From assembly GCA_963971305.1 (NCBI GenBank), contig OZ020308.1, forward strand, positions 24,395,275 to 24,459,274: a DNA stretch of 64,000 nt, in the 5' to 3' direction. Within the stretch, counting starts at the first letter, position 1; every line of letters starts with the position of its first letter. This document shows positions 9,255-62,285 of the stretch, piece by piece. Under the pieces are notes generated by a model. The model was not told the DNA's origin, made no database searches, and saw only the letters and a program-made list of their open reading frames with translations. This DNA comes from Arcuatula senhousia (lineage: Eukaryota > Mollusca > Bivalvia > Mytilida > Mytilidae). Both the position numbers and the translations under genes were made by a program.

Positions 9255-10277
9255 ATGATCTACTATAGCGGATCTTCTGTAGCTATGAACATGACGGTTG
9301 TAGCCTTTATTATGTACACTCTTGCCAATATGGCGGGCATTTTCTTATTCTGGTTGTATAAGAGACGTGACAAATCAATCAAACAACCAACCGAATCTCA
9401 GGTCATTGAAAACGCCATCATAAGAAGGCGTCGACTGAAACATCAGCCATCTTTATTTGCCTTACTCGGTCTCGCCTCGCCTGATAGAACATTTACTGCA
9501 ATAGAGGATCATTTCCATAGTTTTTCAGAAGTCAGTGATGCGTGTAAACGAGCAGGACTAGAAAGATGTGGTCTCATTATTGGTGTGGATTTTACAGCAA
9601 GCAACGAATGGCAGGGACGAAAAACTTTCAATAGTCAATGTTTACATAAAATCATCACAGGAAGGGTCTATAACCCGTACCAAAAGGTCATATCAATCAT
9701 AGGTCAAACTTTAGAACCATTTGACGACGATAATTTAATCCCAGCCTATGGATTTGGGGATTCGTTGACAAACGATGAAGATGTGTTTTGCTTCCTCAGC
9801 AACGGGAATGCATGTAAAGGCTTTGGGGAAGTATTAGAACGATATAATGAATATGCAACAAGTCTTAGTTTTAGTGGACCGACAAACTTTGAGCCAATCA
9901 TAAGCAAAGCCATAGAAATTGTAAAATTAAGAAAATCTTATCATATCTTGATTATAATAGCCGACGGACAGGTGACTGAAGAGACAAAAACAATCCGAGC
10001 AATAGTCGAGGCGTCGGAATATCCCTTGAGCATCGTCGTCATTGGCGTCGGCGACGGACCATGGGATATGATGGAGGATTACGATGACTTTTTACCCAAT
10101 AGAAAATTCGACAACTTTCAATTCGTAAATTACCATTCTGTGACTTCTAAAACAAAGAACCCGGATGCCAGCTTGGCACTACATACGATGATGGAGATAC
10201 CACACCAGTATAAAATTATCAAATCTTTACAATATTTAGAATCACCAGACAGTAAAAATTCAGATATTATATCATAG
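9255..10277 (+). CDS. Membrane-anchored copine-domain protein (vWA-like)
   Basis: The 340-residue protein has an N-terminal hydrophobic segment at about 14-35 followed by KRR, fitting a single membrane anchor with the rest cytosolic. Residues ~85-325 form a copine domain: a vWA-like fold with the metal-binding DxTxS site at D112-T114-S116, the MIDAS threonine near T210 (GPTNF) and D237 in ADG. Copines normally carry two N-terminal C2 domains, and plant RGLG relatives carry a C-terminal RING finger. Neither is present, so this is a copine domain with a membrane anchor in place of the C2 lipid-binding module. Family knowledge suggests Ca/Mg-dependent protein binding or scaffolding; the partner is unknown. 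The coding region is one exon behind an acceptor at 9222. Start choice is uncertain (9255, 9285 or 9291). Confidence 0.85.
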   Translation: MIYYSGSSVAMNMTVVAFIMYTLANMAGIFLFWLYKRRDKSIKQPTESQVIENAIIRRRRLKHQPSLFALLGLASPDRTFTAIEDHFHSFSEVSDACKRAGLERCGLIIGVDFTASNEWQGRKTFNSQCLHKIITGRVYNPYQKVISIIGQTLEPFDDDNLIPAYGFGDSLTNDEDVFCFLSNGNACKGFGEVLERYNEYATSLSFSGPTNFEPIISKAIEIVKLRKSYHILIIIADGQVTEETKTIRAIVEASEYPLSIVVIGVGDGPWDMMEDYDDFLPNRKFDNFQFVNYHSVTSKTKNPDASLALHTMMEIPHQYKIIKSLQYLESPDSKNSDIIS

Positions 10278-13499: not shown

Positions 13500-14045
13500 G
13501 CACTCATCTGAGATATCGAAATCCTATATTTGTCAATAAGCGCATGATGTCTTCCGTAATATTTCTTTTGTAAAGACAGCAACCGAGGAGCAACATAACC
13601 CTATGTGAGCAGTTTTTGTGTCAGACGAGACGCTCTGCCAAGGAAATCGATGTAAGTCTCGCAAGCTCTGGAATAACGAATCAATTGAGATACGTAAACT
13701 TCTTAAGCTGGAGCAGACGGAATATTGTTACACAAGAAGGGAAAGTTGACGATTGGAGAGTTGAAGTCATCACGTTTGTCATAGAGCTTTGTTGAAAGTT
13801 CTTTGAGAGTATATTTCAAGATGTGGATCTAAATATGAAGCAAACTACCTAGAATATGTATTGTCCTTTATCTCGACTTCCTGAGAATATAAAATATGGA
13901 GAAAGTCACCAAATCAGTGAAAGGACACCATCAATATAACGGAGAGTGAGATTAAAATAGAGAGCTAGTCTACGATCTTTTTTCGTCTTAAAGTGATTTT
14001 AAGAAGTCTGCTTCATATGAATGAAGAAACTAATCAAAATTTCTT
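13500..14045 (-). pseudogene. Penelope-like reverse transcriptase pseudogene
   Basis: Reading the minus strand piecewise gives, in order: HSYEADFL (end of RT motif B block), FNLTLRYIDGVLSL (motif C, with YIDG instead of YIDD), LSTKLYDKRDDFNSPIVNF, QLIRYSRACETY, a KLL-stop-GYVAPRLL block and KYYGRHHALIDKYRISISQ. These are collinear with the intact element at 53.7 kb (TKIYDKRDDFSFPIVNF, QLVRYARICSG) but belong to a clearly different lineage. Several in-frame stops and frame changes and the D-to-G change at the catalytic motif show it is dead. Confidence 0.8.
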
Positions 14046-14806: not shown

Positions 14807-15614
14807 GTGAGTATTTTATAATCAAAATATTAGCAAATCATTAGTGCACAATTTATGTTTTAAGTTAAATTTAAGTTAATATGAAGGATATTTTGATTAA
14901 ACATGTGGTTTAAATGGTTTAACTTGTCGTCTGAACAACAAACAATCGTATCGTCTGTAAACAATAAATACAGTACAGCTATGGTAAGCACTTACGTATA
15001 GTTTGTTTCCTCAAAGTCTTGCTAAAGTTTACTTTAAACAGCACAAAAGTCTCTAATTTAGGTATTAAGGTTGGTCGCATCTATTTTAGAAAATAAATAA
15101 GTTAAAAATTAATGGTTATAGAAAAAAAAACATTAAATGATGATAAGTTCGTGACAATGTGGCGGGAAAATGTTTTCTATTGCATATACCAATAGCTACT
15201 AAAACCTTCGATAAAATATATGATTTTAACATAAAGCTTTGTGAATCACTTCTTTATAATATGATAAAGACTTTGAACACCCTCCCCCCCAAAAAAAATA
15301 TGGGGGTCTTTGGCAAAAGTTATGATGGTTACTAAAACAAGTGTATTTACAATTAAACCACCGATAATCCTTAAGACAAATCTTAGAGACACCACAGAAA
15401 ATGATCATTACTACAACCGACAGAAAAACACACAACAAACCTAAAATGAACTTTCGTTAAATCAAAAGTAACATCTTGTACTCTGAAAAGGTAAAAATCA
15501 AGTTCTGCTTGTTGAAGTAAAATCAAATAATACATGTATTTGAGTTGAACAGGACATTAAGGCATTGACGACTTTTTTATTCCTTCAATGTTGTTTTTTT
15601 TTATATATTTTCAG
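14807..15614 (+). other. Putative 5' UTR intron of the phosphatase gene
   Basis: Bounded by GTGAGT at 14807 and a long T-rich tract ending ATATTTTCAG at 15614. It includes an AT-rich interior with no gene. The acceptor is very convincing; the donor partner is inferred. Confidence 0.4.
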
Positions 15615-16433
15615 ATGATAAGTATTACTGTAACTATTTATTATCTAGTCAAAAGATTAATGCATCGATTTGAGTTTTCTTCTTGTGATCCGCCGGAAAT
15701 AGGAAAACCTTCCGTTCCACATATAGTTCTCCATGAAAGTGACATTGGAAATCGACATTTATTCTTTATCGGTGATGTTCACGGGTGCATTGACGAACTA
15801 GATGAACTCTTATCATTAGCAGAACAGGAAATAAAAGGAGGCAGTTTATTACCTATATTTGTTGGAGATTTGACTAACAAAGGACCCGCTAACGACGCGA
15901 TAATTAAAAAAATCCGCCGTATGGACGCATATGCAGTGCGTGGCAATCATGATGAAGCAATATTGAAAAAGTTCTGTTTGAAACTACGTCATGAACCCGA
16001 GTTTGATCCACCAGAAAAATACCAATGGACAAGAAAGTTGAACGACGAAGATGTTAAATATTTATCAAATCTTCCCTATACAATTACAATTCCTTCAAAA
16101 AACATCCTGGTTGTCCATGCTGGAATAGTGCCGGGTGTGTCACTTGAAAACCATAATATTACTGACCTTATTAAAATGAGAAGTATAGAAAAAGAAAATG
16201 GCGGATTCAAACCATTAGAAACCTCATCGAATGCAGCACCGTGGGCCTCGTTTTGGAACGGACCGGAACATGTGATATTTGGACATGACGCTCGTAGAAG
16301 ATTGCAACATTATCCTTTTGCAACAGGGATAGACACTGGTTGTGTTTATGGTAACATGTTATCAGGATATTTGGTTGATAGTGATCGCATATTACAAATC
16401 CGAGCTAAGAAACGTTACAAACCAACAGATTAA
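15615..16433 (+). CDS. ApaH-like metallophosphatase (ALPH-type calcineurin-like phosphoesterase)
   Basis: The start is placed at the ATG directly after the acceptor TTTTCAG (15608-15614); the nine codons upstream that stay open are intronic. The 272-residue protein begins with a short hydrophobic stretch (ISITVTIYYLV) and then a metallophosphoesterase domain with all metal ligands: GDVHG 53-57, GDLTNKG 84-90, RGNHD 109-113, HAG 168-170 and GHD 223-225, plus DTGCVYG at 240-246. The LTNKGP form of motif two and the overall size fit the ApaH-like group, whose members hydrolyse dinucleoside polyphosphates or cap-like pyrophosphates in other lineages. The substrate here is unknown. The hydrophobic N-terminus could be a signal anchor. 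A diadenosine tetraphosphatase or a general Ser/Thr phosphatase are the alternatives. Confidence 0.88.
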   Translation: MISITVTIYYLVKRLMHRFEFSSCDPPEIGKPSVPHIVLHESDIGNRHLFFIGDVHGCIDELDELLSLAEQEIKGGSLLPIFVGDLTNKGPANDAIIKKIRRMDAYAVRGNHDEAILKKFCLKLRHEPEFDPPEKYQWTRKLNDEDVKYLSNLPYTITIPSKNILVVHAGIVPGVSLENHNITDLIKMRSIEKENGGFKPLETSSNAAPWASFWNGPEHVIFGHDARRRLQHYPFATGIDTGCVYGNMLSGYLVDSDRILQIRAKKRYKPTD

Positions 16434-19954: not shown

Positions 19955-20944
19955 TTACAAGTGAGCCATCATTTTACTACAGACACCAATTTTATCCACC
20001 AGATAATATTCTAAATACAGTTTGTAGGCGTCACTTTTCCAGTCCCCTTGTAACTGAATTAATTCAGCGGGAACACCACACTGAAATACCCATGTTGCAC
20101 CCCTATGAGATGAGTAATCTGTCGAATTTAACCCAACCTTACTCAATAATTACCTCAATTTTTTCTGAAAAATAAAGTATGATACAGGTTTAGATGAAAA
20201 CTTGTCTCGCATTAAAAATGCAGGCGAGCTATAGGATGCAGGAAATTTGTTCACCATATTGATATAGGCGGTCACCGGGCATAAAGGAGAATCTAATTTC
20301 TTAACTAAAGGAATTTCAAGCTTTCTATCTCCGAATTGAATTGTTTTTGACCAAGAAAATTGGACTAGTAAATAATCATCAAAAGTACGCACATCACCCC
20401 TTTTAAGACTTTTAGAAATATCAGTCTGAGTACCAACTAAATTAGATTTTCTACTCATAAGAAAAAAGGCAAAAAGAAACATGCACCAGAAAGTATAACT
20501 GTTATCAAAATCCATAGCATCCCTAATTTTACTCAAAATATCTGGTGTTATAGGCAAGGCAAATTTGACTACATGAGGATTACATCGCCGTAAGCCTTTA
20601 ATGAACAATTTATAATAAAAATTTTGGAAATGTGTAAAAGGAAGATCTAATAACAAATGTAATACCTGAACACCATGTAAGTAATTTACAATGGCATCAA
20701 CACTCTTAAAAGATCTACATAAAAATTGAGCATATAAACATAAAGTATCAACACTACATGGAAGTGACTCAAACTCATAATATCTACAAAATAAAAGGAA
20801 GGCTCTCCATTGAGTCTGTAAATTTTTTCTAGTTCCTTCTGAGTGCGCTGACGAAAACGATACTCTTTTTTCTTGTTCCAAAGTCTTTAAATCAGTATTT
20901 CTGTATACTTCACCAGTCGTGAAGAAATCTGAAAAAATGTTCAT
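19955..20944 (-). pseudogene. Tyrosine recombinase of the Ngaro element, interrupted by one nonsense codon
   Basis: The frame opens at ATG 20944, overlapping the end of RT-RNase H by 35 bases. The N-terminal half has a SAM-like helical domain (EGTRKNLQTQWRAFLLFC) and the first catalytic arginine in LMSRKSNLVG. A TAA at 20152-20150 interrupts the frame, which then continues in phase with the C-terminal catalytic part: YSSHRGATWVFQCGVP and GDWKSDAYKLYLEYYL, containing His, Arg, Trp and the nucleophile Tyr region. The box II stretch looks a few residues shorter than the usual HSFRRG form, so catalysis may be lost independently of the stop. In a live element the enzyme would integrate the circular cDNA. 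Confidence 0.8.
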
Positions 20945-22652
20945 CTAACTTAATCTCCTTCAGACGCATTCCCGTTTTTAAAGATTCGAATTTTGTTCGA
21001 TATTCCGATGAAATCGTCCATCTTGAGAGAAAATCAGGTAATCTATTGTCAATGCCTTCAATGTACTCTGCTTTCAACTCACATTCATTAATAGCACAAA
21101 TAAAACATATCTCTCTTAAACAAGCTTGTAGAAAACGACTTCTGGTTCTGCCTTGGTTAATAACTGAAACTGAAACTTTATTATCACAGTAAATACGGAT
21201 CCTTTTCCCTTTCTTAGCCCAACATTTGAGACAAACTATAACAGTCAACAATTCTAAAGCATTGATATGTAAATTTAAGTTTTTGATAAATTCTGGAAAT
21301 TCGGAATGAAAATACTCTTCCCCCGATAAACCTCCACAACCAACAAGACAAGCGTCAGAAGACATAAAGGTGTCTGGTTCAGTCCACTCCTGTAGATTTA
21401 TAATGGATATACCATTGTAAATCATTAGGAACTTAGACCACCACATAAGATCCTTTCTAAGTTCATCAGGTACATCCAAAACACAACTTTTATCTGAAAA
21501 CTCCCTAAAAAAATTCAAAATTCTTGAAATAAAGATACGTCCAGGCCTTACACAAGATGCAACGAAGTTTAACTTCCCTACAAGAGACTGCACTTCCTTT
21601 AAACTAGCAGCGTGTTTATCTAACCAACTATTAACAAGATCAGAAATTTCTATCAATCTATCGGGAGTAACCTCCATTGTCATTTTTAATGTATCAAACC
21701 AAATCCCTAAAAAACACATACAATATACAGGACTACATGCCTTTTCTAAAGACTCTTCTAAACCACATTGATCAAGCACCCATTTTAACATCAAAAAGGA
21801 ATGTTCGGCTCGATCTTGAACTTCAGCACCAGCAAAGTCATCCAAATAATTCACAATTGAAACACCATGATTATTGGCTATAAAATTAACTGCATTAGTT
21901 ACCCTCTGACAAATGTAAGCAGATGAGGTTAAACCCATAGGTAAAACTCTATCAATGAAAAAATGACCTTTCCACGAAAACCCCACTAAATTGTAATCTT
22001 TTGGATCAATCGGAATCTGCCTATAGGCCCTACGTAAATCTCTTTTAAACAACAAACAACCTTGACCTTTCATTTTAATAATATCAATGAATTCATCTAC
22101 CCGAGGATAATGCAAATCTGTTTGTTTGTCAAGATAAATGTTCTTATCAATACCGTCATTAACAGATTTACCCCTAGGGAAACTTAAATCTAAAATAACC
22201 CTTCTTTCCAAAGATTCACCTTTCGGTACAGAATTTAATGGTGACAAAGCCAAAGTATCAAGAAAAGGGTTCTTTTGAAATGGTCCCAAAACAGCACCAT
22301 ACTTCATCTCTTTATTTATGTATTTATCAATTTCTTTAGAAAAGTTTCTTGCTCCACTATGATTTTTAACTTTATTATTAAAAACCTTAATCGTTTCCCT
22401 TTGAAAACCAAGTGGCCAACCAAAATTTAACATTAGACAAATCTCATTGTCATGATACATTTCTAATTCTCTATCCCAAAAGGAAATATTCAGTCCCGAA
22501 AAGACGGGAACTTTTAATGTGTTAAAATTGTATCCGGTGCAAAATGTCAATTCATTGTGCAACGAAATCAACTTTGATTGATCAATTAAAATAGAACTTG
22601 AAATTTCAAAGCATAATCTACAATGGTCTTTGTTAAATAAAACTTCTTCCAA
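20910..22652 (-). CDS. Reverse transcriptase-RNase H of the Ngaro element
   Basis: 580 residues without a stop. RT motifs: RRVILDLSFPRG (~150-161), KRDLRRAYRQIPI (~203-215, motif A Asp), RVLPMGLTSSAY (~235-246, motif B) and IVNYLDDFAGAE (YLDD 269-272, motif C). RNase H follows: SSDACLVGCGG, NALELLTVIVCLKCW, IYCDNKVSVSV and IDNRLPDFLSRW supply the D-E-D-D set. The MGLTSS and YLDDFAG forms are typical of DIRS-class elements. The reported start is a TTG; the frame follows a TGA six bases upstream that ends the gag frame in the same phase, so expression may depend on readthrough or reinitiation. Codon use is A/T-rich like the surroundings. Confidence 0.9.
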   Translation of the reverse strand: MEEVLFNKDHCRLCFEISSSILIDQSKLISLHNELTFCTGYNFNTLKVPVFSGLNISFWDRELEMYHDNEICLMLNFGWPLGFQRETIKVFNNKVKNHSGARNFSKEIDKYINKEMKYGAVLGPFQKNPFLDTLALSPLNSVPKGESLERRVILDLSFPRGKSVNDGIDKNIYLDKQTDLHYPRVDEFIDIIKMKGQGCLLFKRDLRRAYRQIPIDPKDYNLVGFSWKGHFFIDRVLPMGLTSSAYICQRVTNAVNFIANNHGVSIVNYLDDFAGAEVQDRAEHSFLMLKWVLDQCGLEESLEKACSPVYCMCFLGIWFDTLKMTMEVTPDRLIEISDLVNSWLDKHAASLKEVQSLVGKLNFVASCVRPGRIFISRILNFFREFSDKSCVLDVPDELRKDLMWWSKFLMIYNGISIINLQEWTEPDTFMSSDACLVGCGGLSGEEYFHSEFPEFIKNLNLHINALELLTVIVCLKCWAKKGKRIRIYCDNKVSVSVINQGRTRSRFLQACLREICFICAINECELKAEYIEGIDNRLPDFLSRWTISSEYRTKFESLKTGMRLKEIKLDEHFFRFLHDW

Positions 22653-22907: not shown

Positions 22908-25900
22908 TGTAACAACCGTTATTGTAATAAAAACCGTTATTGTAATAAATTTTGTTATATGAATTTAAAGTGGATTTTTTTATTCTACGCGAAGGAATTA
23001 ATTGTAACTAAGATATTATCACCAATAATAATTGAATATTTTAACTAATTATGAAAATAATTAACATTTAAAAACAGTTTATTACAATAACAGTTGTTAT
23101 CACAATAACGGTTGGCATAGTCAACCGTTATTGTAATAAACTTTTTTATATCGTAAAATTTAAATTTTTGAATTAATTTTACTTCTTAGTTGAGGTCAAA
23201 ATATATTTGTGGATTGCTAAATACCGATATCAGTTGTTATTATTACTATTAAAACCAAGAAATGACTTTGAAGTTTTTATTACAATAACGGTTGACGACC
23301 GAAATCCTTAGTGTAACAACAACTGTTATGGTAATTAACTTTTTCAATCAATCTTATTTCGTCTTTAAAACATCTTAAATGACTAATAGTCACGGAAAAT
23401 CGGCATTTCAGTCTTCCTAAACAGTTATTTTTTATATTTTCGAACAAATTTCAGAAATTAGGATTTTTTCTTACAATTTTGGCTAAGTGTTTGATTTGTT
23501 CTGAATATATGAATATATTGACTGAAATGGATATAGATGATCTACTTGTACATGAATATACTAATTGATTCATTATTAAGATATTTTGAGTCACTTCTAA
23601 ACAAAATATGTCTTCGAAGTTTTTATTACAATAACGGTTGACGGCCGAAATCCTTATTGTAACAACAACCGTTATGGCAATTAACTTTTTCAATCAATCT
23701 TACTTCGTCTTTAAAACGTCCTAAATAACTTATAGTCGCCGAAAATTGGTATTTCAGTCACTTTAAACAGTTATTTTCTATATTTTCGAACAAATATCAG
23801 AAATTAATATTTTTTTTTACAGTTTTGGCTAATTAGTGTCCGATATGTTCTGAAAATATGAATATATTGTCTGAAATGGATATAGCTGATCTACTAGTAC
23901 TTGAATATACTAATTCATTCATATTTATGTCATTTTGAGTCACTTCTTAACAAAATATGTCTTTGAAGTTTTTATTACAATAATGGTTGACGAGCAAAAT
24001 TCTTACTGTAACAACAACCGTTATGGTAATAAACTTTTTTAATCAATCTTATTTTGTCTTTAAAACATCCTAAATGACTTGTAGTCACGGAAAATCGGCA
24101 TTTCAGTCTTTGTAAACAGTCTTCCTTTATTTTCGAAAACTCATTCAAGAAATTAAGATTTTTTCTTACAATTTTGGCTAAGTGTCCGATATATTCTGGA
24201 AATATGAATATATTATCTGATATGGATATAGATGATCTACTAGTACTTAAATATACTAATTTATTCATAGTTAAGTCATTTTGAGTCACTTCTAAACATA
24301 AGTCATCTTTAAAGATTTTATTACACTAACGGTTGACGACCGAAATCCTTATTGTAATAACAACCAATATGGTAATAAACTTTTTCAATCAACCTTATTT
24401 CGTCGTTTGATCATCCAAAATGACTAACAGTAACGGAAAATCGACATTTCAGTCTTTTTTAACAGTAATTTTCTAATTTTTTTAACTAATTTCAGAAATT
24501 AAGATTTTTTCTTACAATTTTGGCAAAGTGTCCGATTTATTCTTGAAATATGAATATATTGTCTATAATGGATATAGATGATGTACTAGTACTTGAATAT
24601 ACCATGGAAGTAATATTACTTCCATGAATATACTAATTCATTCATATTCGAGTCACTTCTAAACAAAATATGTCTTTGAAGTTTTTATTACAATAACGGT
24701 TGACGACTGAAATCCTTATTGTAACAACAACTGTTATGGTAATAAACATTTTCAATCAATCATATTTCGTCTTTAAAACATCCTTAATGACTTATAGTCA
24801 CGGAAAATCGGAATTTCAGTCTTCTTAAACAGTTTTCCTTTATTTTCGAAAACTAATTTAAGAAATTAAGATTTTTTCTTACAATTTTGGCTAAGTGTCC
24901 GATACATTCTGAAAATATAAAAGTATTATATGAGATGGATATAGATGATCTACTTGTACTCGAAAATACTTATTGATTCATATTAAATTCATTTTGAGTC
25001 ACTTCTAAACAAAATTCATGTTTGAAGATTTTATTACAATAACGGTTGACGACCGAAATCCTTATTGTAACAACAACCGTTATGGTAATAAACTTTTTCA
25101 ATCAACCTAATTTCGTCGTTTAATCATCCAAAATGACTAACAGACACGGAAAATCGACATTTTAGTCTTTTTTAACAGTTATTTTCTATATTTTTGAACT
25201 AATTTCAGAAATTAAGATTTTTTCTTACAATTTTGGCTAAGTGTCAGATATATTCTGGAAATATGAATATATATTATATGAGATGGATATAGATGATCTA
25301 CTAGTACTTGAATATACTAATTGATTCATATTTTAGTCATTTTGAGTCACTTCTAAACAAAATATGTCTTTTTGAAGTTTTTTATTACAATAACGGTTTA
25401 AAGTGACTGAAATACCAATTTTCGGCGATTATTAATCATTTAGGATGTTTTAAAGACGAAATAAGATTGATTGAAAAAGTTTATTACCATAACGGTTGTT
25501 GTTACACTAAGGATTTCGGCCGTCAACCGTTATTGTAATAAAAATTTCAAAGTCATTTTTTGTTTTAATAGTAATAATAACAACTGATATCGGTATTTAG
25601 CAATCCAGAAATATATTTTGACTTCAACTAAGAAGTAAAATTAATTAAGAAAATTAAATTTTACGATATAAAAAAGTTTATTACAATAACGGTTGAGCAT
25701 GCCAACCGTTATTGTGATAACAACTGTTATTGTAATAAACTGTTTTTAAATGTTAATTATTTTCATAATTAGTTAAAAATATTTAATTATTATTGGTGAT
25801 AATATCTTAGTTACAATTAATATCTTCGCGTAAAATAAAAAAATCCACTTTTAAATCATATAACACATTTTATTACAATAACGGTTGTTATTACAATAAC

Positions 25901-28727: not shown

Positions 28728-31700
28728 ATGAAAAGATATATTAATAAACTAAGTATATCAGCATGGAATATACATGGCCTAGGTGACAAACCAAATGATG
28801 AATATTTTAGTAAATACATACAAAGTGATATAAATATTTTATTAGAAACGTGGAAAGGTGAAAGTCAAGAATATAAAATTGAAGGATTTAACCAATTTAG
28901 TAAATGCCGAAAGAAAAAAAAAGGTTCAAGAAGGTACAGTGGTGGAATTATTATTTATTATAAAAAACAAATGCATGAAGGCATATCATATGTTGTTAAA
29001 GGAACAGATTCTGAAAATAGATTATGGATTAAATTACAAAAAAACTTTTTTGGCTTACAAGAAGATATTTATGTGTGTGCAGTGTATATACCTCCACAAA
29101 ATTCAAATCATTTTGATGACGACTTTGTCAAATTAGAAGAAGAAATTTTACGTTTCTCTAATAAAGGAGAAATTTTAATTTTAGGCGATCTTAATTCAAG
29201 AACGGGTCTAAACCTAGATTATATAGAAAATGATAACACAAATATTAATAGGTTTGTGGAGAAAGAATTATTACCAACACAATATTATAAATCAGATTAT
29301 TGTTTTAAAAGAAATAATAGAGATATAGTGGTTAACTCACATGGAAATGAACTAATAGAATTGTGTTTGTCATCTAGGTTACGTATACTAAATGGTAGAT
29401 ATATAGGAGATTTACTAGGAAATTTTACATATATGTCAAATAATGGGTCTAGTGTAATAGACTATGGTATTGCTAGTGAGGGTCTTCTTTCCTCAGTTCA
29501 ATTTTTTAAGACCTGTCAATTTAACTATTTATCAGATCATGCTCAAATTGAAGTATTTTTAAAATGTAAATACAAGTTACAAAATGCAGAAACTTTTAAA
29601 GAATGGTCAAAATCTATGTCATTTAAGTGGGACGACCAGAAGTCTAATTTGAAACTTACAAACTGTCTTGCAGAAAAAGAGACAATTAGATGTATTGTAG
29701 ATTTTGAAACTGAAGACATTAATGAAAGCCAATCAGGTGTTGACGGGGCAACAAATAAACTTACAAATATATTAACAGAAATTTCAGAAAAGTCTTGTGT
29801 TCTAAAATTAAATAATAATAAGAAAAGAGTTAATAAAAGAAGACATAAATGGTCTGATCATTCAATTGTAGAAATGAAACATCAAATCAATAAAATAGCA
29901 TCAAAATTAAGAACATATCCATTTGATCAAGAAGGTAGAAATAAATATTTTAGCTTACTTAAAACATTTAAAAAAGCAGTTAAACACAAGAAAAATGATT
30001 ATAGAAAAAAAGTTATGAATGAACTAGAAAACTCTTTTGAAAAAAATAAAGTAGACTACTGGAAAATGCTAAAAGATATGAAGAATGAAAAGACAATAGA
30101 TAAGGATGATAATGAAGAAATTTTTCATAACTTAGATGATTTAGAACATCATTTTAAAAACCAAGGAGAAAGTAACAAAATAGATAAAGAATTTCAAAAT
30201 AATATAGAAAGTAAATTAATAGAAAGAATTAATAGTCTAGAGTTCCAAGAAATCACAGACAAACCTTTTACAATAACAGAAGTTAAGAAAATAGTTAAAA
30301 TTCTAAAGAAAAATAAAGCAAGTGGTCCAGATAGAATAGTAAATGAAGTTATAAAGCAGAGCAGTACTATCACAGCAAAAGCTTATACTAAACTTTTTAA
30401 TGTGATATTGAAGTCCGGTTATTACCCAAAATCATGGGAAGATTCATATATTATCCCAATTCATAAGTCTGGAAATAGACATGATATGAATAATTATAGA
30501 GGAATTTCTCTAATGAATTGTCTCTCAAAGGTGTTTAGTGCACTTCTTAACTCGAGATTAACTTGTCTAATGGAAAAAACATACAATAAAACACAATTTG
30601 GTTTTAGACCTAACCATCGAACTTCAGACAGCATATTCATTTTAAAATCTATAATAAATAAATACCTTCATAAAAATAAAAAGAAACTTTATGTGTGCTT
30701 CGTAGACTTCCAAAAAGCCTTTGACTCCATCTGGAGAGATGGTCTATTATATAAACTTACTAACTATGGAGTAGGAAAATATTTTTTAAAAGTTTTAGAA
30801 AGTCAATTTAAAGAGACAAGATGTGCTTTTAAACATAACAATTTGGTATCTAGATTTTTTTCAATTAACAAAGGAGTTCGACAAGGAGACAGTATTAGCC
30901 CTACACTATTTAATATTTTTATAAATGACTTAAGTGATATATTTAGTGAAGCTAGTTGTTCACCAGTCTCACTCCTAAAAAGTAAACTTGGATGTCTGCA
31001 ATTTGCAGATGACCTGATTTTGATATCTGAAGACAAAGCAGGTATTCAAAAAAGTTTAAACAATTTATCTAATTACTGCAGTAAATGGCAATTAACAGTG
31101 AATGTAAAGAAAACCAAAACAATGATTATACAAAATAAACCAGGAAAAATTATTGAATCTTTTGCAGAATATAATCAACAAAAACTTGAAAATGTCAAGG
31201 AATATAAATTTCTGGGATGCCTCATAGTAAACAATGGCAGTTTGGCCAAATGCACTATAGATTTAGCTAAGAAAGCAAGAAAGGTTCTTTTTGCAATAAA
31301 ATCGTATACTTCGAACTATGGTATATTACCTGTCAAAGTTTCATATAATATGTTTAAGCAGTTAGTTCAGCCTATTATGACATATAATGCTGAAATCTGT
31401 TTCATGGATAGCTATCTTCCCTTGTACAGAGCTCAAGCTCGGGGGTCAAAAAATAATGTGATAATAGATGTCCTATCCTTCATAGACAAAACCCAAATAG
31501 AAAAAGTACATCTCAATTTTATAAAAACTACTCTGGGAGTAAAAAAATGTACCACAAACTGTTTTTCAAGGGCAGAACTAGAAGCTCTCCCTGTGGAAAG
31601 TTTTATAAAAACCCAAGCTTTAGTCTATCTTTCTAGACTACACAATGAAAATTTAAATCCTCTTTTAAAGGAGGCATTTGAGTTAACTAAACAATTACAT

Positions 31701-32294
31701 TCACAAAAGGTGTTCTCCTGGTTTTCCTTTGTTTCAACTATTTTGGATGAAATAAACTCTAGCATTGAACAGTTTACAGAATGTAAAACTGTTAAGCAAT
31801 CAAAAGCACTTAAAACTGAAATAAAAAATAAAATTGACTTCTATTATGAAAATTTAATTCAAAATAAGATTGAAAATCTTACAATTAATAATAAAAATTA
31901 CTTGTATAAATTTATTAAATCTAAAACTGGATCACAGGAATTTTATCTTTCAAATACAAACTATGAAATAAGACAACTTTTTTCAAAATTTAGACTATGC
32001 GATCATTTTCTTAACATAGAAACAGGTAGATATAAAAAAGTTGAAAGAAATAAACGAGTATGTTTAAAATGTAATTTGGTAGAGGATGAGTGTCATTTCT
32101 TTTTTCATTGTAAGATATATGCATCAATCAGATCTCAATTAATCAACTATTTAAATAATCAATATAAAGATTTTAGTTTAAAACCTGAAATAGAAAAACT
32201 AAAAATTATTTTAAACCCCTCAACACCTGAAGAAGTTAAAATAATTGCCTCTTTCTTCAAACAGGCATTAGAACTGAGGAAGGAAGAACATTAA
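28728..32294 (+). CDS. LINE ORF2: AP endonuclease-reverse transcriptase, intact
   Basis: 1,188 residues without interruption. The N-terminal AP-endonuclease (~1-275) has SAWNIHGLG, LLETWKG, LILGDLNSRTG (~150-160) and SDHAQIEVF (~270). The RT has KKNKASGPDRI, FVDFQKAFDSIWRDG (~658), GVRQGDSISPTLFN (~715) and LQFADDLILIS (FADD ~760). The C-terminus has a CCHC knuckle, CLKCNLVEDECHFFFHC, near 1110-1128, a feature shared with the other LINE fragments here (44.6, 51.6 and 52.9 kb). Domain order and motifs fit the Jockey/I-like branch; a finer family is not claimed. It makes the nick and primes cDNA at the target. An unbroken frame means it could be active if the promoter is intact, but the 5' end is missing. 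Confidence 0.93.
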   Translation: MKRYINKLSISAWNIHGLGDKPNDEYFSKYIQSDINILLETWKGESQEYKIEGFNQFSKCRKKKKGSRRYSGGIIIYYKKQMHEGISYVVKGTDSENRLWIKLQKNFFGLQEDIYVCAVYIPPQNSNHFDDDFVKLEEEILRFSNKGEILILGDLNSRTGLNLDYIENDNTNINRFVEKELLPTQYYKSDYCFKRNNRDIVVNSHGNELIELCLSSRLRILNGRYIGDLLGNFTYMSNNGSSVIDYGIASEGLLSSVQFFKTCQFNYLSDHAQIEVFLKCKYKLQNAETFKEWSKSMSFKWDDQKSNLKLTNCLAEKETIRCIVDFETEDINESQSGVDGATNKLTNILTEISEKSCVLKLNNNKKRVNKRRHKWSDHSIVEMKHQINKIASKLRTYPFDQEGRNKYFSLLKTFKKAVKHKKNDYRKKVMNELENSFEKNKVDYWKMLKDMKNEKTIDKDDNEEIFHNLDDLEHHFKNQGESNKIDKEFQNNIESKLIERINSLEFQEITDKPFTITEVKKIVKILKKNKASGPDRIVNEVIKQSSTITAKAYTKLFNVILKSGYYPKSWEDSYIIPIHKSGNRHDMNNYRGISLMNCLSKVFSALLNSRLTCLMEKTYNKTQFGFRPNHRTSDSIFILKSIINKYLHKNKKKLYVCFVDFQKAFDSIWRDGLLYKLTNYGVGKYFLKVLESQFKETRCAFKHNNLVSRFFSINKGVRQGDSISPTLFNIFINDLSDIFSEASCSPVSLLKSKLGCLQFADDLILISEDKAGIQKSLNNLSNYCSKWQLTVNVKKTKTMIIQNKPGKIIESFAEYNQQKLENVKEYKFLGCLIVNNGSLAKCTIDLAKKARKVLFAIKSYTSNYGILPVKVSYNMFKQLVQPIMTYNAEICFMDSYLPLYRAQARGSKNNVIIDVLSFIDKTQIEKVHLNFIKTTLGVKKCTTNCFSRAELEALPVESFIKTQALVYLSRLHNENLNPLLKEAFELTKQLHSQKVFSWFSFVSTILDEINSSIEQFTECKTVKQSKALKTEIKNKIDFYYENLIQNKIENLTINNKNYLYKFIKSKTGSQEFYLSNTNYEIRQLFSKFRLCDHFLNIETGRYKKVERNKRVCLKCNLVEDECHFFFHCKIYASIRSQLINYLNNQYKDFSLKPEIEKLKIILNPSTPEEVKIIASFFKQALELRKEEH

Positions 32295-52599: not shown

Positions 52600-53082
52600 T
52601 TAAACAATTGTCAAACAATGAAAGAAGTTTAACAGCATAAAAAAATAGTTACAGAAAATTGTGTAATTTTTTATAAAGAAATTATATTAAATAAACTAAA
52701 TAATTTAAATGAAAATGATAAACACTGTCTGTATAAATCTCTAAAACAAAATGTAAATGAAATGGAATACTATCTATCATATCATAATAAAACATTAAGA
52801 ACCCTTTTATCTAAAATTAGACTAAGCGATCACAAACTAAGTATTGAACTTGGTAGATATAGAAAAATCCCAAGAGATCAAAGACTGTGTGCCATATGCA
52901 ACACACTTGATGATGAGTCACACTTCTTCCTTGAATGTAAAATCAATTCTAATATTCAAACTGTCTTTTTGCAATATTTTAATAACAATTATGATTTTAA
53001 TAAACTAAGTAAAACTGAAAAACTAACAAAAACTCTGAATCCAACTACAAGCGAAGAAATTAAGACCGTTACTTTCTTTATT
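52600..53082 (+). pseudogene. LINE ORF2 C-terminal fragment, split by the Penelope-like insertion (left half)
   Basis: Open from about 52640. It encodes KLNNLNENDKHCLYKSLKQN, LRTLLSKIRLSDHKLSIELG and the knuckle LCAICNTLDDESHFFLEC, then PTTSEEIKTVTFFI, where the inserted element takes over. It resumes at 59511 with KQSLELREGDLS. Similar in layout to the intact LINE at 28.7 kb, but a different family. Confidence 0.8.
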
Positions 53083-53731
53083 AATAGAAGAAAATGAGAT
53101 GTGGAATAAGTGTACGCGACACAACCTACATTATAAACGTAAATTTTAAATATCCACAATGGAAAACAGCCAGCAGCCTTCAATGTGACCAGCGGTCGCT
53201 GCTCGCTGTTTTTCAATTGGCCCCTGGATTGAAAATAAAATACATATGATTCAAGCCCAATCCCAAAGTGCATTGAAAGACCCTCTTCTTGACAAAAAAC
53301 AATTAACAAAAATTCGACTAAATACAAACATAAGCTTTGATAAAGATTCCTGGCTTAGGACAGGCACATTAAAATGTGGCGGGGTTAAACTAGTTTTTTG
53401 GCGCCAACCTTCCCCCTAATGACAATCAATAACAAAGCACAAACTAACACACAGTAAAAATCAAATCGATAGAAGTTCAATTCAACAAGAGAGTATCTGA
53501 GACAAAAGGACAACAGGTAATTAACGGGACGTAAAGATACTCTCTTGAGAACACTCGAAGTTACTGACAGCTAGCTAAGAAGCATCCATCGACTGATGTA
53601 AAAAAATCAAGTATGTCGATTTTAAATCCGACACAACACGTCAAACACTTGATTTGATGATGCATCATCACACAAAACCGACACACTTGACCGCTGTAAT
53701 GCTCAAAAATGACATAAGTATAAAAAGGCAA

Positions 53732-56700
53732 TTAACATTTTAAAGTAAGTATCAAATTATCAATATTTTTACCAAAGAAGACTAAATTCAAAGATTTTAC
53801 TAAAATATCCATTTCATAACCTTTATTTAATAAAGTTTTAAGCCAATTTTGCATTCCCAACGGATTGTTTTTGAATTTATTTGCTCTATAAACAACATTA
53901 CCGTAGAAATTTGGATGGGATATTCCCTTTACAATCAAAAGTCGTCGTGTGCTATTAAATTTTCCAATAAGGTATAGATATTTATGATAAAACTTAGTAA
54001 ACGACTTCACTAATTTGTGGTAACGATATCCTTGTTTTAGTAATTTTTTTGTAATACACTGGTTTTTATCATTAAAATCAGACACACCACTGCAGATCCG
54101 AGCATATCTTACCAACTGTGAAATATATACTCCGTAAGACGGAGCAAGTGGTACATCTCCCTCTAGAAAAGGAAAATTCACAATGGGAAATGAAAAGTCA
54201 TCCCGTTTATCATATATTTTAGTGTGTAATTTTCCATTGATTATACTTAAATCTAGATCTAAAAATGGGCATCTATCACCAGTAAGGTTAGATTTATTCA
54301 AAGTTAATTCCTTGGGATAAATTTCCGTAATAAAATTAGAAAATGTCGGATTGTTTAGTGAAAGAATGTCGTCTAAATATCTGTATGTATAATTAAAAGT
54401 TTCAATGAGATGTTGTCTGTTGGGGTCTTTTTGAAGTTTTGCCATAAATTGGGATTCATAACAATACAAAAAAAGGTCAGCAATAAGTGGGGCACAATTA
54501 GTTCCCATAGGGATACCAATGACTTGGCGATAAATTGTTCTCCCAAAACGAATATAAATGTTGTCCAAAAGATAATTTAGAGCAGTTATCATTTCTGCAT
54601 CAGTCCAATTGACGTAACCTTTATGAGTCTCGTTGCTAAAAAACGATTTATTAAATAATTTAGAAACTTTAGAGCAGATATAGTCACTTTTAGATTTATC
54701 GAAACACCATTTAACCAGATATTCAAATTGTTTTTTAATAAGACAGTGAGGAAGGTTAGTGTACAAAGTAGAAAAATCGTAGCTATCAACTGTATTGTAA
54801 GTACCTTCAAAAGCGCGAAGTTTGTCTAAAACATCGAGCGAATTTTTCACACTCCAAAAATGATTTATGCCACTGTTTTCAAATACCTTTTCGCAGTATC
54901 GAATAATAAATTCTTTCATAGTAGTCAAAGCAAGTGATAAGACTTTAGAAATATTAGTGAGAGAACACTTACTTGAAGCAGATATGAAACGGGATTTATA
55001 AGGATTTTTGTGTAGTTTAGGGATCCAGTACATTGTAGGTAGTTTATTGTATGTAGGAGCGGCTCGTAGTGATGTGGTATTTAAAATATGGTCCTCAATA
55101 ATACTACATTCTGTAGATTGTACGCGAATAAAAGTGTTGGAGCTTTTAATTTCTTGCATCAACACTTCGAGGTAATATTTTCGTCATACAATAACGACAT
55201 TATTGGCAGCTTTGTCTGCAGGAACGAAAACGTATTGTGAACCAAGTGAACGCATTTTTGTCTTAATTCTTTTTAGATATGTATTTGGCCGAAATTCTAC
55301 AAAGGAGTTTTGAAAATGATTTATTCTGAGTTTAACAATTGACATGAAGTTATTTATAAAATTGTCAAGAGATTTAGTATCTGCTTCTTCTCTCTTGATC
55401 CAAGATTTACAGAAAGAGAGAAGTGCAGTTTTGATACAATCAAAGCAAGAATTCCAATTGATCTTTGAGGGGGGTCTAAATTTTGGGCCCTTTTTCAGAA
55501 AATTTATTACCTCTGGGTCCTTGACGATGGTAAGGTCACCGGTAACAACATGGTCACAAGGAACATATTTAAAATCAGAATTACTACAGTCGCATGACAA
55601 AGGAATATTCGTATCCAGTTCTTCATCAGTAGTGGTTGACGTATAATTAAAAATAATGTTTCGGGTAGGTTTTTTATATTTATAAGATACAATAGGAGGT
55701 TCAGTATTAGAAAAATAAGGTGGAATGAGATCTTTGATTTTTGGATCCGCAAATATGCTAGATATGTTTATAAAATCAAGTCCTCTATTAATATATGTTA
55801 ATTTGATAAAATGTCGAATGTGGTCTAGAGGACTATCAATTTTTGGAAACAATTTAAAATAACAGAATGCATTTATGATAAGTGCACCTTCATATAAGGG
55901 ACTGGCGTGAGATATAGTTTCACAGTCCAGTTTAATATTGTTTAGTTTAGAAATAGGTATAGAACACAGTTTACAAAGTAATTGATGTCTTCCGTTGTTT
56001 TTAAATATTTTAACAAGATCTGTAATGGTAATGTTTGAACGATGTTGTATTCTAGTATTATGATTTATTCGCCTACCATGCGACCGCTTGTTCCTTTTAC
56101 GAGGAACCGTCAAATTCATGAAATTAAAGTTTGAAGATCTGGATATGTTACCTTGTCCCATGATGTTATCGTTAAGACCCAGAGGGTAAGCCGTTTGGAG
56201 TTTTTTAATCCACTCCAGTTCTGCAAGTCGTCTTGCCTTGCAAAACTGGCGTTTACTTAAATTGGAATCTCTTTTAATGATTTCAATGGGTTGAACCTTT
56301 ATGTACTGAATGTCATGATTATGCTTATTTAAATGTTGATATAAAAGGCATTTATATTTTTTGAACCGACGAAAGCGATACAGATGTTCAGCTGTTCGTT
56401 TTGATAAATATCTGCCGGTCTCCCCAACATATTGAATGTTGCAACCAGGCTTTGATCGTGTAATTAAATATATCAAATTGTTTGTACGTCAGCTGACATC
56501 TTCAGTGAGCTGAATAGAAAATTTTCGTCCATTTACAGAAGATTTGACAGTGGTGTCCCTGATTAATCTGTTGCATGTTTGTCATTTTGGAGCATTACAT
56601 GGAGAAATTTTAGGATATCCACGGTAAGAGCTGTTAAAGTTACCTTTTTTAGTTGTGTTTATTTTATTATGGTTTCGATTTTGAACTTGAGACGATTGAA

Positions 56701-56833
56701 CAGAAGTTTTAAAATTATTTCTGGTATTGTAAGGGTGGCCATTATTTACATTAGAGTGACGGGTTACGTTAGATGTGGATATCCTAGGTTTGGGTATACA
56801 ATTAAATGTTCTTTTTCTATTTCGTAATATCAT
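53732..56833 (-). CDS. Naiad-type Penelope-like polyprotein (GIY-YIG endonuclease-RT) with three in-frame UGA codons, probable selenoprotein
   Basis: From ATG 56833 to TAA 53732 the frame is 1,034 codons (1,033 residues if UGA is read) with only three interruptions, all UGA: 56584-56582 (residue 84), 56491-56489 (residue 115) and 55186-55184 (residue 550). Contexts are PCNAPK-U-QTCNR, TEDVS-U-RTNNLIYL and ANNVVIV-U-RKYYLE. In relatives these are cysteines as I know them. Domains: basic N-terminus 1-80; Cys-rich knuckle 80-116; GIY-YIG nuclease from LIYLI (120) through YVGETG (~135-140) with HL..HNHD; CxC linker SCDCSNSDF near 413; RT with DFSTLYTNLPH (motif A), GIPMGTNCAPLIADLF (B) and RYLDDILSLNN (C, YLDD). 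The enzyme would nick DNA and reverse transcribe at the target. UAA termination and the lack of any frameshift argue for a functional frame. A SECIS element was not identified by eye. Confidence 0.85.
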
Positions 56834-57217
56834 GATGGTAGTCGTAAGGAGAGAAGATGGTGCTCAAAAACACAATAGGATCGGTATGAAAGCATATGTA
56901 TTAAGCTGAATATAATATAATAAGGTATAACGGACTAATCTATCCTGCTACAACTACTATAAATTCCCGACAAGATAACATAAGAACGCAACAACATAAA
57001 AACAACAACAGGGACAAGTAGTAAAAGCATGACAGATTAGAAAACCAAAGAGGTGGGCGATAAAATATAAAGTAAATGAAGGTGGAAGTGGGTGGGAAAC
57101 TATGTAAGCTATCACGTGTACAGGTATACCATCATTAAAATATATAAGAGCATACACCTCAAGCACGGGGATACGTTCTACTGCATCCACACAGCACAAG
57201 AGACAAACTCTGCAAAA
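56834..57217 (-). other. 5' region of the full Penelope-like copy
   Basis: About 384 bases between the truncated upstream copy and the ATG. An in-frame TGA at 56866-56864 precedes the ATG and sets the start. No hammerhead ribozyme core could be picked out by eye. Confidence 0.5.
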
Positions 57218-59510
57218 AATAGAAGAAAATGAGATGTGGAATAAGTGTACGCGACACAACCTACATTATAAACGTAAATTTTAAATATCCACAATGGAAA
57301 ACAGCCAGCAGCCTTCAATGTGACCAGCGGTCGCTGCTCGCTGTTTTTCAATTGGCCCCTGGATTGAAAATAAAATACATATGATTCAAGCCCAATCCCA
57401 AAGTGCATTGAAAGACCCTCTTCTTGACAAAAAACAATTAACAAAAATTCGACTAAATACAAACATAAGCTTTGATAAAGATTCCTGGCTTAGGACAGGC
57501 ACATTAAAATGTGGCGGGGTTAAACTAGTTTTTTGGCGCCAACCTTCCCCCTAATGACAATCAATAACAAAGCACAAACTAACACACAGTAAAAATCAAA
57601 TCGATAGAAGTTCAATTCAACAAGAGAGTATCTGAGACAAAAGGACAACAGGTAATTAACGGGACGTAAAGATACTCTCTTGAGAACACTCGAAGTTACT
57701 GACAGCTAGCTAAGAAGCATCCATCGACTGATGTAAAAAAATCAAGTATGTCGATTTTAAATCCGACACAACACGTCAAACACTTGATTTGATGATGCAT
57801 CATCACACAAAACCGACACACTTGACCGCTGTAATGCTCAAAAATGACATAAGTATAAAAAGGCAATTAACATTTTAAAGTAAGTATCAAATTATCAATA
57901 TTTTTACCAAAGAAGACTAAATTCAAAGATTTTACTAAAATATCCATTTCATAACCTTTATTTAATAAAGTTTTAAGCCAATTTTGCATTCCCAACGGAT
58001 TGTTTTTGAATTTATTTGCTCTATAAACAACATTACCGTAGAAATTTGGATCGGATATTCCCTTTACAATCAAAAGTCGTCGTGTGCTATTAAATTTTCC
58101 AATAAGGTATAGATATTTATGATAAAACTTAGTAAACGACTTCACTAATTTGTGGTAACGATATCCTTGTTTTAGTAATTTTTTTGTAATACACTGGTTT
58201 TTATCATTAAAATCAGACACACCACTGCAGATCCGAGCATATCTTACCAACTGTGAAATATATACTCCGTAAGACGGAGCAAGTGGTACATCTCCCTCTA
58301 GAAAAGGAAAATTCACAATGGGAAATGAAAAGTCATCCCGTTTATCATATATTTTAGTGTGTAATTTTCCATTGATTATACTTAAATCTAGATCTAAAAA
58401 TGGGCATCTATCACCAGTAAGGTTAGATTTATTCAAAGTTAATTCCTTGGGATAAATTTCCGTAATAAAATTAGAAAATGTCGGATTGTTTAGTGAAAGA
58501 ATGTCGTCTAAATATCTGTATGTATAATTAAAAGTTTCAATGAGATGTTGTCTGTTGGGGTCTTTTTGAAGTTTTGCCATAAATTGGGATTCATAACAAT
58601 ACAAAAAAAGGTCAGCAATAAGTGGGGCACAATTAGTTCCCATAGGGATACCAATGACTTGGCGATAAATTGTTCTCCCAAAACGAATATAAATGTTGTC
58701 CAAAAGATAATTTAGAGCAGTTATCATTTCTGCATCAGTCCAATTGACGTAACCTTTATGAGTCTCGTTGCTAAAAAACGATTTATTAAATAATTTAGAA
58801 ACTTTAGAGCAGATATAGTCACTTTTAGATTTATCGAAACACCATTTAACCAGATATTCAAATTGTTTTTTAATAAGACAGTGAGGAAGGTTAGTGTACA
58901 AAGTAGAAAAATCGTAGCTATCAACTGTATTGTAAGTACCTTCAAAAGCGCGAAGTTTGTCTAAAACATCGAGCGAATTTTTCACACTCCAAAAATGATT
59001 TATGCCACTGTTTTCAAATACCTTTTCGCAGTATCGAATAATAAATTCTTTCATAGTAGTCAAAGCAAGTGATAAGACTTTAGAAATATTAGTGAGAGAA
59101 CACTTACTTGAAGCAGATATGAAACGGGATTTATAAGGATTTTTGTGTAGTTTAGGGATCCAGTACATTGTAGGTAGTTTATTGTATGTAGGAGCGGCTC
59201 GTAGTGATGTGGTATTTAAAATATGGTCCTCAATAATACTACATTCTGTAGATTGTACGCGAATAAAAGTGTTGGAGCTTTTAATTTCTTGCATCAACAC
59301 TTCGAGGTAATATTTTCGTCATACAATAACGACATTATTGGCAGCTTTGTCTGCAGGAACGAAAACGTATTGTGAACCAAGTGAACGCATTTTTGTCTTA
59401 ATTCTTTTTAGATATGTATTTGGCCGAAATTCTACAAAGGAGTTTTGAAAATGATTTATTCTGAGTTTAACAATTGACATGAAGTTATTTATAAAATTGT
59501 CAAGAGATTT
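57218..59510 (-). mobile_element. Penelope-like retroelement, 5'-truncated upstream tandem copy
   Basis: Bases 57218-59510 repeat 53083-55375 at offset 4,135 with very few differences (for example CCATCC versus CGATCC near 53917/58052, His to Asp). The copy ends within the linker region, where LINE sequence resumes (AAACAGTCATTAGAACTG). It contains RT and 3' region only. Confidence 0.92.
57867..59508 (-). pseudogene. Truncated Penelope-like ORF: linker end, UGA, complete RT
   Basis: Same RT as in the full copy including YLDD. It lacks the GIY-YIG domain, the CxC motif and the first two UGA sites. The third UGA is kept at 59321-59319 in the same context, so two independent copies carry it. 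It has no own start and is probably unable to transpose, but could act as a promoter-bearing pseudo-LTR for the downstream full copy. Confidence 0.88.
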
Positions 59511-59692
59511 AAACAGTCATTAGAACTGAGAGAAGGAGACCTGTCATAAATATTTAGTTGTACAATTGTAAAATTTAGATACCTCCATGATTTATGTTGT
59601 TCTTTGTTTGTTTTGTATTCATGTATATGTTTTAAGTTCTGTAAAGCTATAACCAATGCGGTTTACTGTGTGCTTTAATAAAATAAAAAAAT
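59511..59692 (+). mobile_element. LINE 3' end, right half of the split copy
   Basis: Resumes with AAACAGTCATTAGAACTGAG and continues GACCTGTCATAAATA, a short 3' UTR and GTGCTTTAATAAAATAAA, closely matching 52270-52460. TTAA at 53081-53084 and 59509-59512 is shared microhomology or a 4-bp duplication. Confidence 0.85.
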
Positions 59693-61399: not shown

Positions 61400-61492
61400 G
61401 CTGCTGGCGGTTGTCCATTGTGGTTTTTCTAAATTGCCGTTTAATTGTGGGCTGTGTCGCGTACACTTATTCCACATCTCTTTATTTTCTAT
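61400..61492 (+). mobile_element. Penelope-like element terminal fragment, opposite orientation
   Basis: TCCATTGTGG, TGTCGCGTACACTTATTCC and ACATCTC are the reverse complement of the terminal region at 53090-53170, so this small piece is inverted relative to the copy 61800-62285. Confidence 0.75.
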
Positions 61493-61790: not shown

Positions 61791-61799
61791 AATCGTATA

Positions 61800-62285
61800 G
61801 AAGATAATGAGATGTGGAATAAGTGTACGCGACACAACCTTCAATATAAACGACAATTTAAGAAATCCACAATGGAAAACAGCCAGCAGCCTTCAATGTG
61901 ACCAGTGGTCGCTGCTCGCTGGTTTTCAATTGGCCCTGGATTGAATATTAACTACATATGATTCAAGTACAATCCTAAAGTGCAATGAAATACCCTCTTT
62001 TTGACAAAAAAAAAAAAAAACCCAAAAAACCAAAACAATTTACATAAATTCGATGAAATACAAACATAAACTTTAATACAGATTCCTGGTTTAGGACAGG
62101 CACATTTAAAAATGTGGTGGGGTTAAACTAGTTTTTTGGCGCCAACCTTCCCCCTATTGATAATCAATAACAAAGCTCAAACTAACACACAGTAAAAATC
62201 AAATTGATAGAATTTCAATTCAACAAGAGAGAACCTGAGACAAAAGTACAACAAGAGATTAACGGGGCGTGGAGATTGCGTTGTG
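61800..62285 (-). mobile_element. Solo Penelope-like 3' region, diverged
   Basis: Follows 53086-53520 in order: GAGATGTGGAATAAGTGTAC, AAACAGCCAGCAGCC, GATTCCTGG-TTAGGACAGG, TTTTTTGGCGCCAACC and AACAAGAGAG. About 10% different with an A-rich insertion at 62010. No RT is attached. Confidence 0.85.

Follow-up and report, generated by a model that had tools for sequence, protein, structure and literature searches.

Naiads, a type of Penelope-like retrotransposon, have an IFD insertion in the fingers, and those of spiders and clams reportedly gained multi-selenocysteine proteins independently. The element described here, from the bivalve Arcuatula senhousia, resembles the Naiads in its N-terminal GIY-YIG nuclease, CxC linker, C-terminal telomerase-like reverse transcriptase (RT), tandem pseudo-LTRs and several in-frame UGA codons. 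In PMC11167929, Penelope-like elements are described as head-to-tail units with pseudo-LTRs, and DNA nicking and primed reverse transcription are outlined for PAc of Anolis. Canonical Penelope/Poseidon elements such as PAc share with our element the presence of GIY-YIG and RT in one ORF and the head-to-tail pseudo-LTR units, but in PMC11167929 they are given a C-terminal nuclease and a hammerhead ribozyme, whereas the nuclease here is N-terminal. Selenoprotein P, which contains multiple selenocysteine (Sec) residues according to PMC8230778, likewise has several Sec codons in one message, though it is a host protein of unrelated function while the present element is mobile. Among the papers listed by literature searches, none dealt with a selenoprotein transposon, judged by title or the start of the abstract. 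We consider it very probable that this element is a Naiad-type Penelope-like retrotransposon whose one protein is multi-selenocysteine.

The window, as we call the whole stretch of 64,000 nucleotides that was analysed, contains one full unit of the element and a truncated one, with the following features.

53083..57217, minus strand: full element unit (5' UTR, ORF, 3' UTR), 4,135 nt; repeat spacing 4,135, 3' end common to most siblings
57218..59511 (about), minus strand: 5'-truncated upstream unit in head-to-tail tandem, with codons about 487-1034 and the 3' UTR
53732..56833, minus strand: ORF of 1033 codons plus TAA with UGA read as Sec, from ATG at 56833 to TAA at 53732
56180..56614, minus strand: GIY-YIG endonuclease region, residues about 74-218
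56582..56584, minus strand: UGA codon 84; Cys in 9/9 relatives with a residue there
56489..56491, minus strand: UGA codon 115; Cys in 9/11 relatives with a residue there
56456..56458, minus strand: codon 126, CGA (Arg) in the window, a putative lost fourth Sec site; UGA in 19/20 copies
55586..55594, minus strand: CxC motif, residues 414-416; C416 in 24/24 and C414 in 22/24 relatives
53927..55678, minus strand: telomerase-like RT region, residues about 386-969
55184..55186, minus strand: UGA codon 550; UGA in 23/23 copies, the truncated upstream unit included
53605..53693, minus strand: SECIS-like hairpin of the 3' UTR, form-2-like; from fold, descriptor, covariation and covariance model
57740..57828, minus strand: identical SECIS-like hairpin of the upstream unit; from descriptor and covariance model

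The GIY-YIG nuclease lies N-terminal to a telomerase-related RT, both cysteines of the CxC linker are conserved, and tandem units with a pseudo-LTR arrangement and 5' truncation are seen, all of which are characters of Naiads. Neighbouring units are also found elsewhere in the host genome, for example on contigs C9 and C10. The full and upstream units are 99.956% identical with a single codon differing (locus row L001), and this near identity would point to a recent insertion; together the sequences suggest a young, multi-copy Naiad-type Penelope retrotransposon that has recently inserted. No Rfam match to a ribozyme, the hammerhead included, exceeded the gathering score in the window, an absent match being weak evidence. 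Searches with the window protein gave no match at E<=1 in the PDB by sequence and only a sub-threshold SWIM match in Pfam; a model of the nuclease gave no Foldseek match at E<=0.001, and none of 18 pattern matches in viral contigs was confirmed as a relative.

The 3' end of the element recurs in an older and diverged form at 61796-62276 of the window (blocks 62% and 91% identical), with an inverted partner at 61426-61492, and another Naiad-like remnant with stops lies at 13526-13801 (minus strand), 48% identical to residues 868-959. The window also holds two other retrotransposons, one an ORF with reverse transcriptase and endonuclease matches (28728-32294, plus strand) and one an ORF with a reverse transcriptase match (20910-22652, minus strand), as well as a tandem array of about 6 copies of a 346-nt unit (23262-25398). 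A Copine-matching ORF (9255-10277, plus strand; 340 aa) and an ORF matching calcineurin-like phosphoesterase (15588-16433, plus strand; 281 aa) are both open without introns.

The first-pass annotation had described the ORF as interrupted solely by three UGA codons in Cys-type contexts. Translation of the frame from 56833 to 53732 bears this out: the in-frame stops number exactly three and are all UGA, falling at residues 84 (PK-U-QTC), 115 (VS-U-RTNN) and 550 (VVIV-U-RKYY), and the frame contains neither UAA, UAG nor a frameshift before its terminal TAA. The expectation that relatives would have Cys at these positions also held. In an alignment of 24 relatives, counted at each site over those with a residue there, Cys is invariant at 84, is found at 115 in all except P0007 (Trp) and P0038 (Leu), and occupies 550 in 11/12, the exception again being Trp in P0007. 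At site 126 (alignment A1) Cys is present in 9/10 relatives with a residue there, with Trp once more in P0007. This sequence, 42% identical over half of the query, has Trp at 115, 126, 414 and 550, and looks as though its prediction had taken UGA for a Trp codon. Trp also stands at 414, the first Cys of the CxC, in both P0007 and P0038, as if UGA were read as Trp, and residue 414 is a possible further Sec site. From the conservation pattern, residues 84, 87, 115, 126 and 131 appear to form a Sec/Cys cluster that binds metal or has a structural role. Cys families also occur in the same host genome: in locus L016, which is decayed and has stops of several types, the codons corresponding to 115, 126 and 550 are TGC, and in locus L027 the residue corresponding to 550 is Cys. 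Among 13 short database relatives from the profile search, 10 (40-83% identity) stop exactly at residue 549, as judged from the protein ends; the others (P0031, P0038 and P0043) end elsewhere.

For sibling copies, the host genome (1.036 Gb, 1803 contigs) was searched and 40 of 2,245 first-look candidates were scored; the alignments used are those of at least 1,000 nt, and L003 and L005-L008 were left out because these loci are the same places as L009-L013. The first set comprised 23 alignments, two of them the window's own units, with TGA at codon 550 in all 23, at 84 and 115 in 6/6, and at 126 in 5/6, the sixth being the CGA of the window. A further 14 copies of the same subfamily (A, see below) gave TGA at 84 in 13/13 and at both 115 and 126 in 14/14, although the copies are partly non-independent, three in this further set being neighbouring units on contig C9 and two on C14. 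Summed over the siblings, UGA is found at 84 in 19/19 and at 115 in 20/20, with 550 and 126 as listed above. Thus the count of three UGA sites given in the first-pass annotation is correct for the window copy and wrong for the family, which has four; Arg at 126 has probably weakened the window copy. The first-pass annotation had also overlooked the upstream unit and the SECIS-like hairpin. At codon 87, A copies have TGC in 12/13. The thirteenth (L060; G000 C6:27376837-27377007) shows a Cys-to-UGA change there, matching subfamily C.

Across the 23 alignments, departures from the commonest base fall most often on the third codon position (108, compared with 54 on the first and 43 on the second). 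Stops other than the UGA sites do occur in siblings (TAA 5, TGA 2, TAG 1) and several copies have indels. These stops vary in position and in kind, whereas the UGA sites are fixed, in keeping with the earlier argument that decay should mix its stops, and from the sequences this ordinary pattern of decay looks different from that of the fixed UGAs.

A protein search of the host genome, in which 44 of 46,209 first-look candidates were scored, separated three subfamilies, to which rows were allotted from their identity, the length of the frame and the number of stops. Among the 44 scored rows, 25 belong to A (93-100% identity), 14 to B and 5 to C (80-81%), and the protein identity of B and C to the window family is about 81%. 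Exactly 3 UGAs and no other stop are found in 8/14 of the listed B rows, and exactly 5 UGAs and no other stop in 4/5 of the listed C rows. In two B copies the codons corresponding to 84, 115 and 126 are UGA and that at 550 is TGT, the latter also being present in 6/6 further B copies. Two C copies have UGA at 84, 87, 115, 126 and 550. All UGAs in B and C are at Cys columns, and Cys and UGA are exchanged at 87 and 550.

When one copy per subfamily is compared along the entire ORF, dS is 1.0-1.3 and dN/dS 0.09-0.11. The ratio is 0.05-0.08 for codons 551-1033 and 0.09-0.10 for codons 127-549; the only loose stretch is codons 1-83, at 0.41-0.52, and for codons 85-125 synonymous sites are saturated in 1/3 subfamily comparisons. 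On these rates, the sequence beyond the UGAs appears to have been long kept as protein. The recurrence of the UGAs is more than chance, since the same UGAs are found in siblings, 84 and 115 are UGA in both diverged subfamilies with synonymous sites near saturation, and 10/13 short database relatives end at residue 549. If the element were instead a decayed retrotransposon, its UGAs being nonsense mutations of a dead copy common to siblings by descent, the other stops and indels carried by single copies, and the change at 126 in the window copy itself, would be readily understood. Such a history is contradicted by a dN/dS of 0.05-0.10 beyond the UGAs, and it sits poorly with the UGAs at 84, 115 and 126 common to subfamilies at dS of about 1.0-1.3, with the placement of every UGA site on a Cys column and with the retention of SECIS-like hairpins described below. 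We regard decay as extremely improbable.

Eukaryotic SECIS elements are described in PMC2746813 as having two helices, a GA quartet and an apical AAR as conserved features. The hairpin at 53693-53605 fits that description, with a 20-bp stem, an internal loop of UGAU opposite GGAU, a second stem, and an AAA that begins 12 nt after the core UGA. Its stability corresponds to a z of -5.62 and 0/200 shuffles were as stable. A descriptor, set after the candidate had been seen and run over both strands of the 64-kb window, matched twice, both times in the element units; it also matched 3/3000 Markov versions of the UTR. Sibling loci gave 27 hairpin rows at 97.9-100% identity, five of which are duplicated among later loci. 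The window and 20 loci were scanned with a covariance model based in part on window sequence, and 21 strong matches resulted: the window has two and 19 of the loci have one each, while L025, a truncated locus, has none. The weak matches that are left come from these hairpins read on the opposite strand. No SECIS was found with Rfam in the window at the gathering score, nor in 53000-53760 at E<=10. Weak Rfam matches to microRNA, sRNA and twister families were taken as chance.

Across A, B and C, 94.8% of cells in the stem alignment are paired, versus 30-44% when the pairing is slid. Three stem pairs are changed on both sides (four according to RNAalifold in its own structure), though 3/5 covariation measures do not beat column shuffles, with three lineages (n=3). 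The C hairpin has UGAU and AAA in 5/5 copies (L030, L031 and L046-L048), and A and C both show the two helices, quartet and AAR of PMC2746813. In B (L029, L032 and L034-L045; hairpins at L029 3239-3331 and L032 3240-3332) 14/14 copies have UGGU in the core, facing a GGAU that is unchanged, and AAU in place of AAR at the apex; the core and AAR features are thus lacking while the helices are kept and the stem is fully paired. A SECIS-like hairpin was present in the full copies examined, in a non-standard form in B, and none was recognised by Rfam. The UGG core and AAU of the 3-UGA subfamily B are the most unexpected finding of the analysis.

What this means for B can be read in two ways. The SECIS of B may be dead and its copies spread in trans by A or C proteins, to which we give a little less than an even chance. 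The replacement of UGA by UGG and of AAR by AAU in every copy points this way, the GA quartet and AAR motif being conserved SECIS features in PMC2746813, as does a scan with relaxed thresholds, which gave no other SECIS-like match in the 805 nt that follow the stop in L029 and L032. Supply in trans is harder to square with the same purifying selection on B against A or C (dN/dS 0.05-0.10 over codons 127-1033), with the 8/14 listed B rows that have only the three UGAs, and with the fully paired stem. The other reading, which we hold tentatively and think rather unlikely, is that the B SECIS works though non-canonical (UGG, AAU) and serves three Sec codons, the number of Sec sites shifting (3, 4, 5; L060) within one genome.

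The B hairpin also bears on whether the UGAs are passed without Sec at all, by leaky readthrough to another amino acid or by translation of the pieces through reinitiation. Besides B lacking a canonical SECIS core, such a course would be compatible with the piece after codon 550, which is an open 477-aa frame from GTG, and Sec insertion is itself a deduction from sequence. Leaky readthrough leaves unexplained why the UGAs sit on Cys columns, why UGA and Cys codons are exchanged (B has TGT at 550 and A has TGC at 87) and why the 3' UTR carries a SECIS-like hairpin, and we judge passage without Sec to be very improbable. The reading first proposed for this locus, a multi-selenocysteine Naiad, is supported by the Cys columns, the fixed UGAs and the SECIS-like hairpin, and Sec would be incorporated at the UGAs.

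The host appears equipped for this. Three tRNA-Sec loci over the cut-off (78.7-79.9 bits) were found in its genome, with a model that also matches 14/14 control genomes and exceeds the cut-off in 5. Matches to SepSecS form six blocks inside C3:67547981-67558464, the pattern that exons would give, and one of the blocks has stops; control matches were obtained in 3 genomes, Bacillus subtilis included. These matches are supportive, not proof. The movement of the multi-selenocysteine Naiad probably depends on the host selenium machinery, given the UGAs at Cys positions and the SECIS-like hairpin in its RNA. In the mechanism we envisage, the 3' UTR SECIS would recruit host Sec-insertion factors and the ribosome would read each in-frame UGA as selenocysteine, giving the full nuclease/reverse transcriptase. 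Sec would replace Cys in and just before the GIY-YIG nuclease (84, 115, the siblings' 126 and subfamily C's 87) and also at residue 550, close to where the polymerase fingers begin. The protein would presumably nick DNA and prime reverse transcription of its RNA, and mobilisation would leave the 5'-truncated and head-to-tail units.

As a multi-selenocysteine Naiad the element would be a further case of a known kind. What may be new is the series of 3, 4 and 5 UGAs in one genome, the exchange of Cys and Sec at residues 87 and 550, and the altered SECIS of B. Because gene callers break such proteins off at every UGA, multi-Sec retroelements are easily mistaken for dead copies. If the reading is true, copying of the element would be tied to the selenium that the host supplies and to factors on which host selenoproteins also rely. 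The three coexisting subfamilies would then offer one nuclease and reverse transcriptase in matched Sec and Cys forms, such that the gain of Sec over Cys would be directly testable, and the series of 3, 4 and 5 Sec sites would be a natural experiment on how Cys and Sec are exchanged and how SECIS elements evolve.
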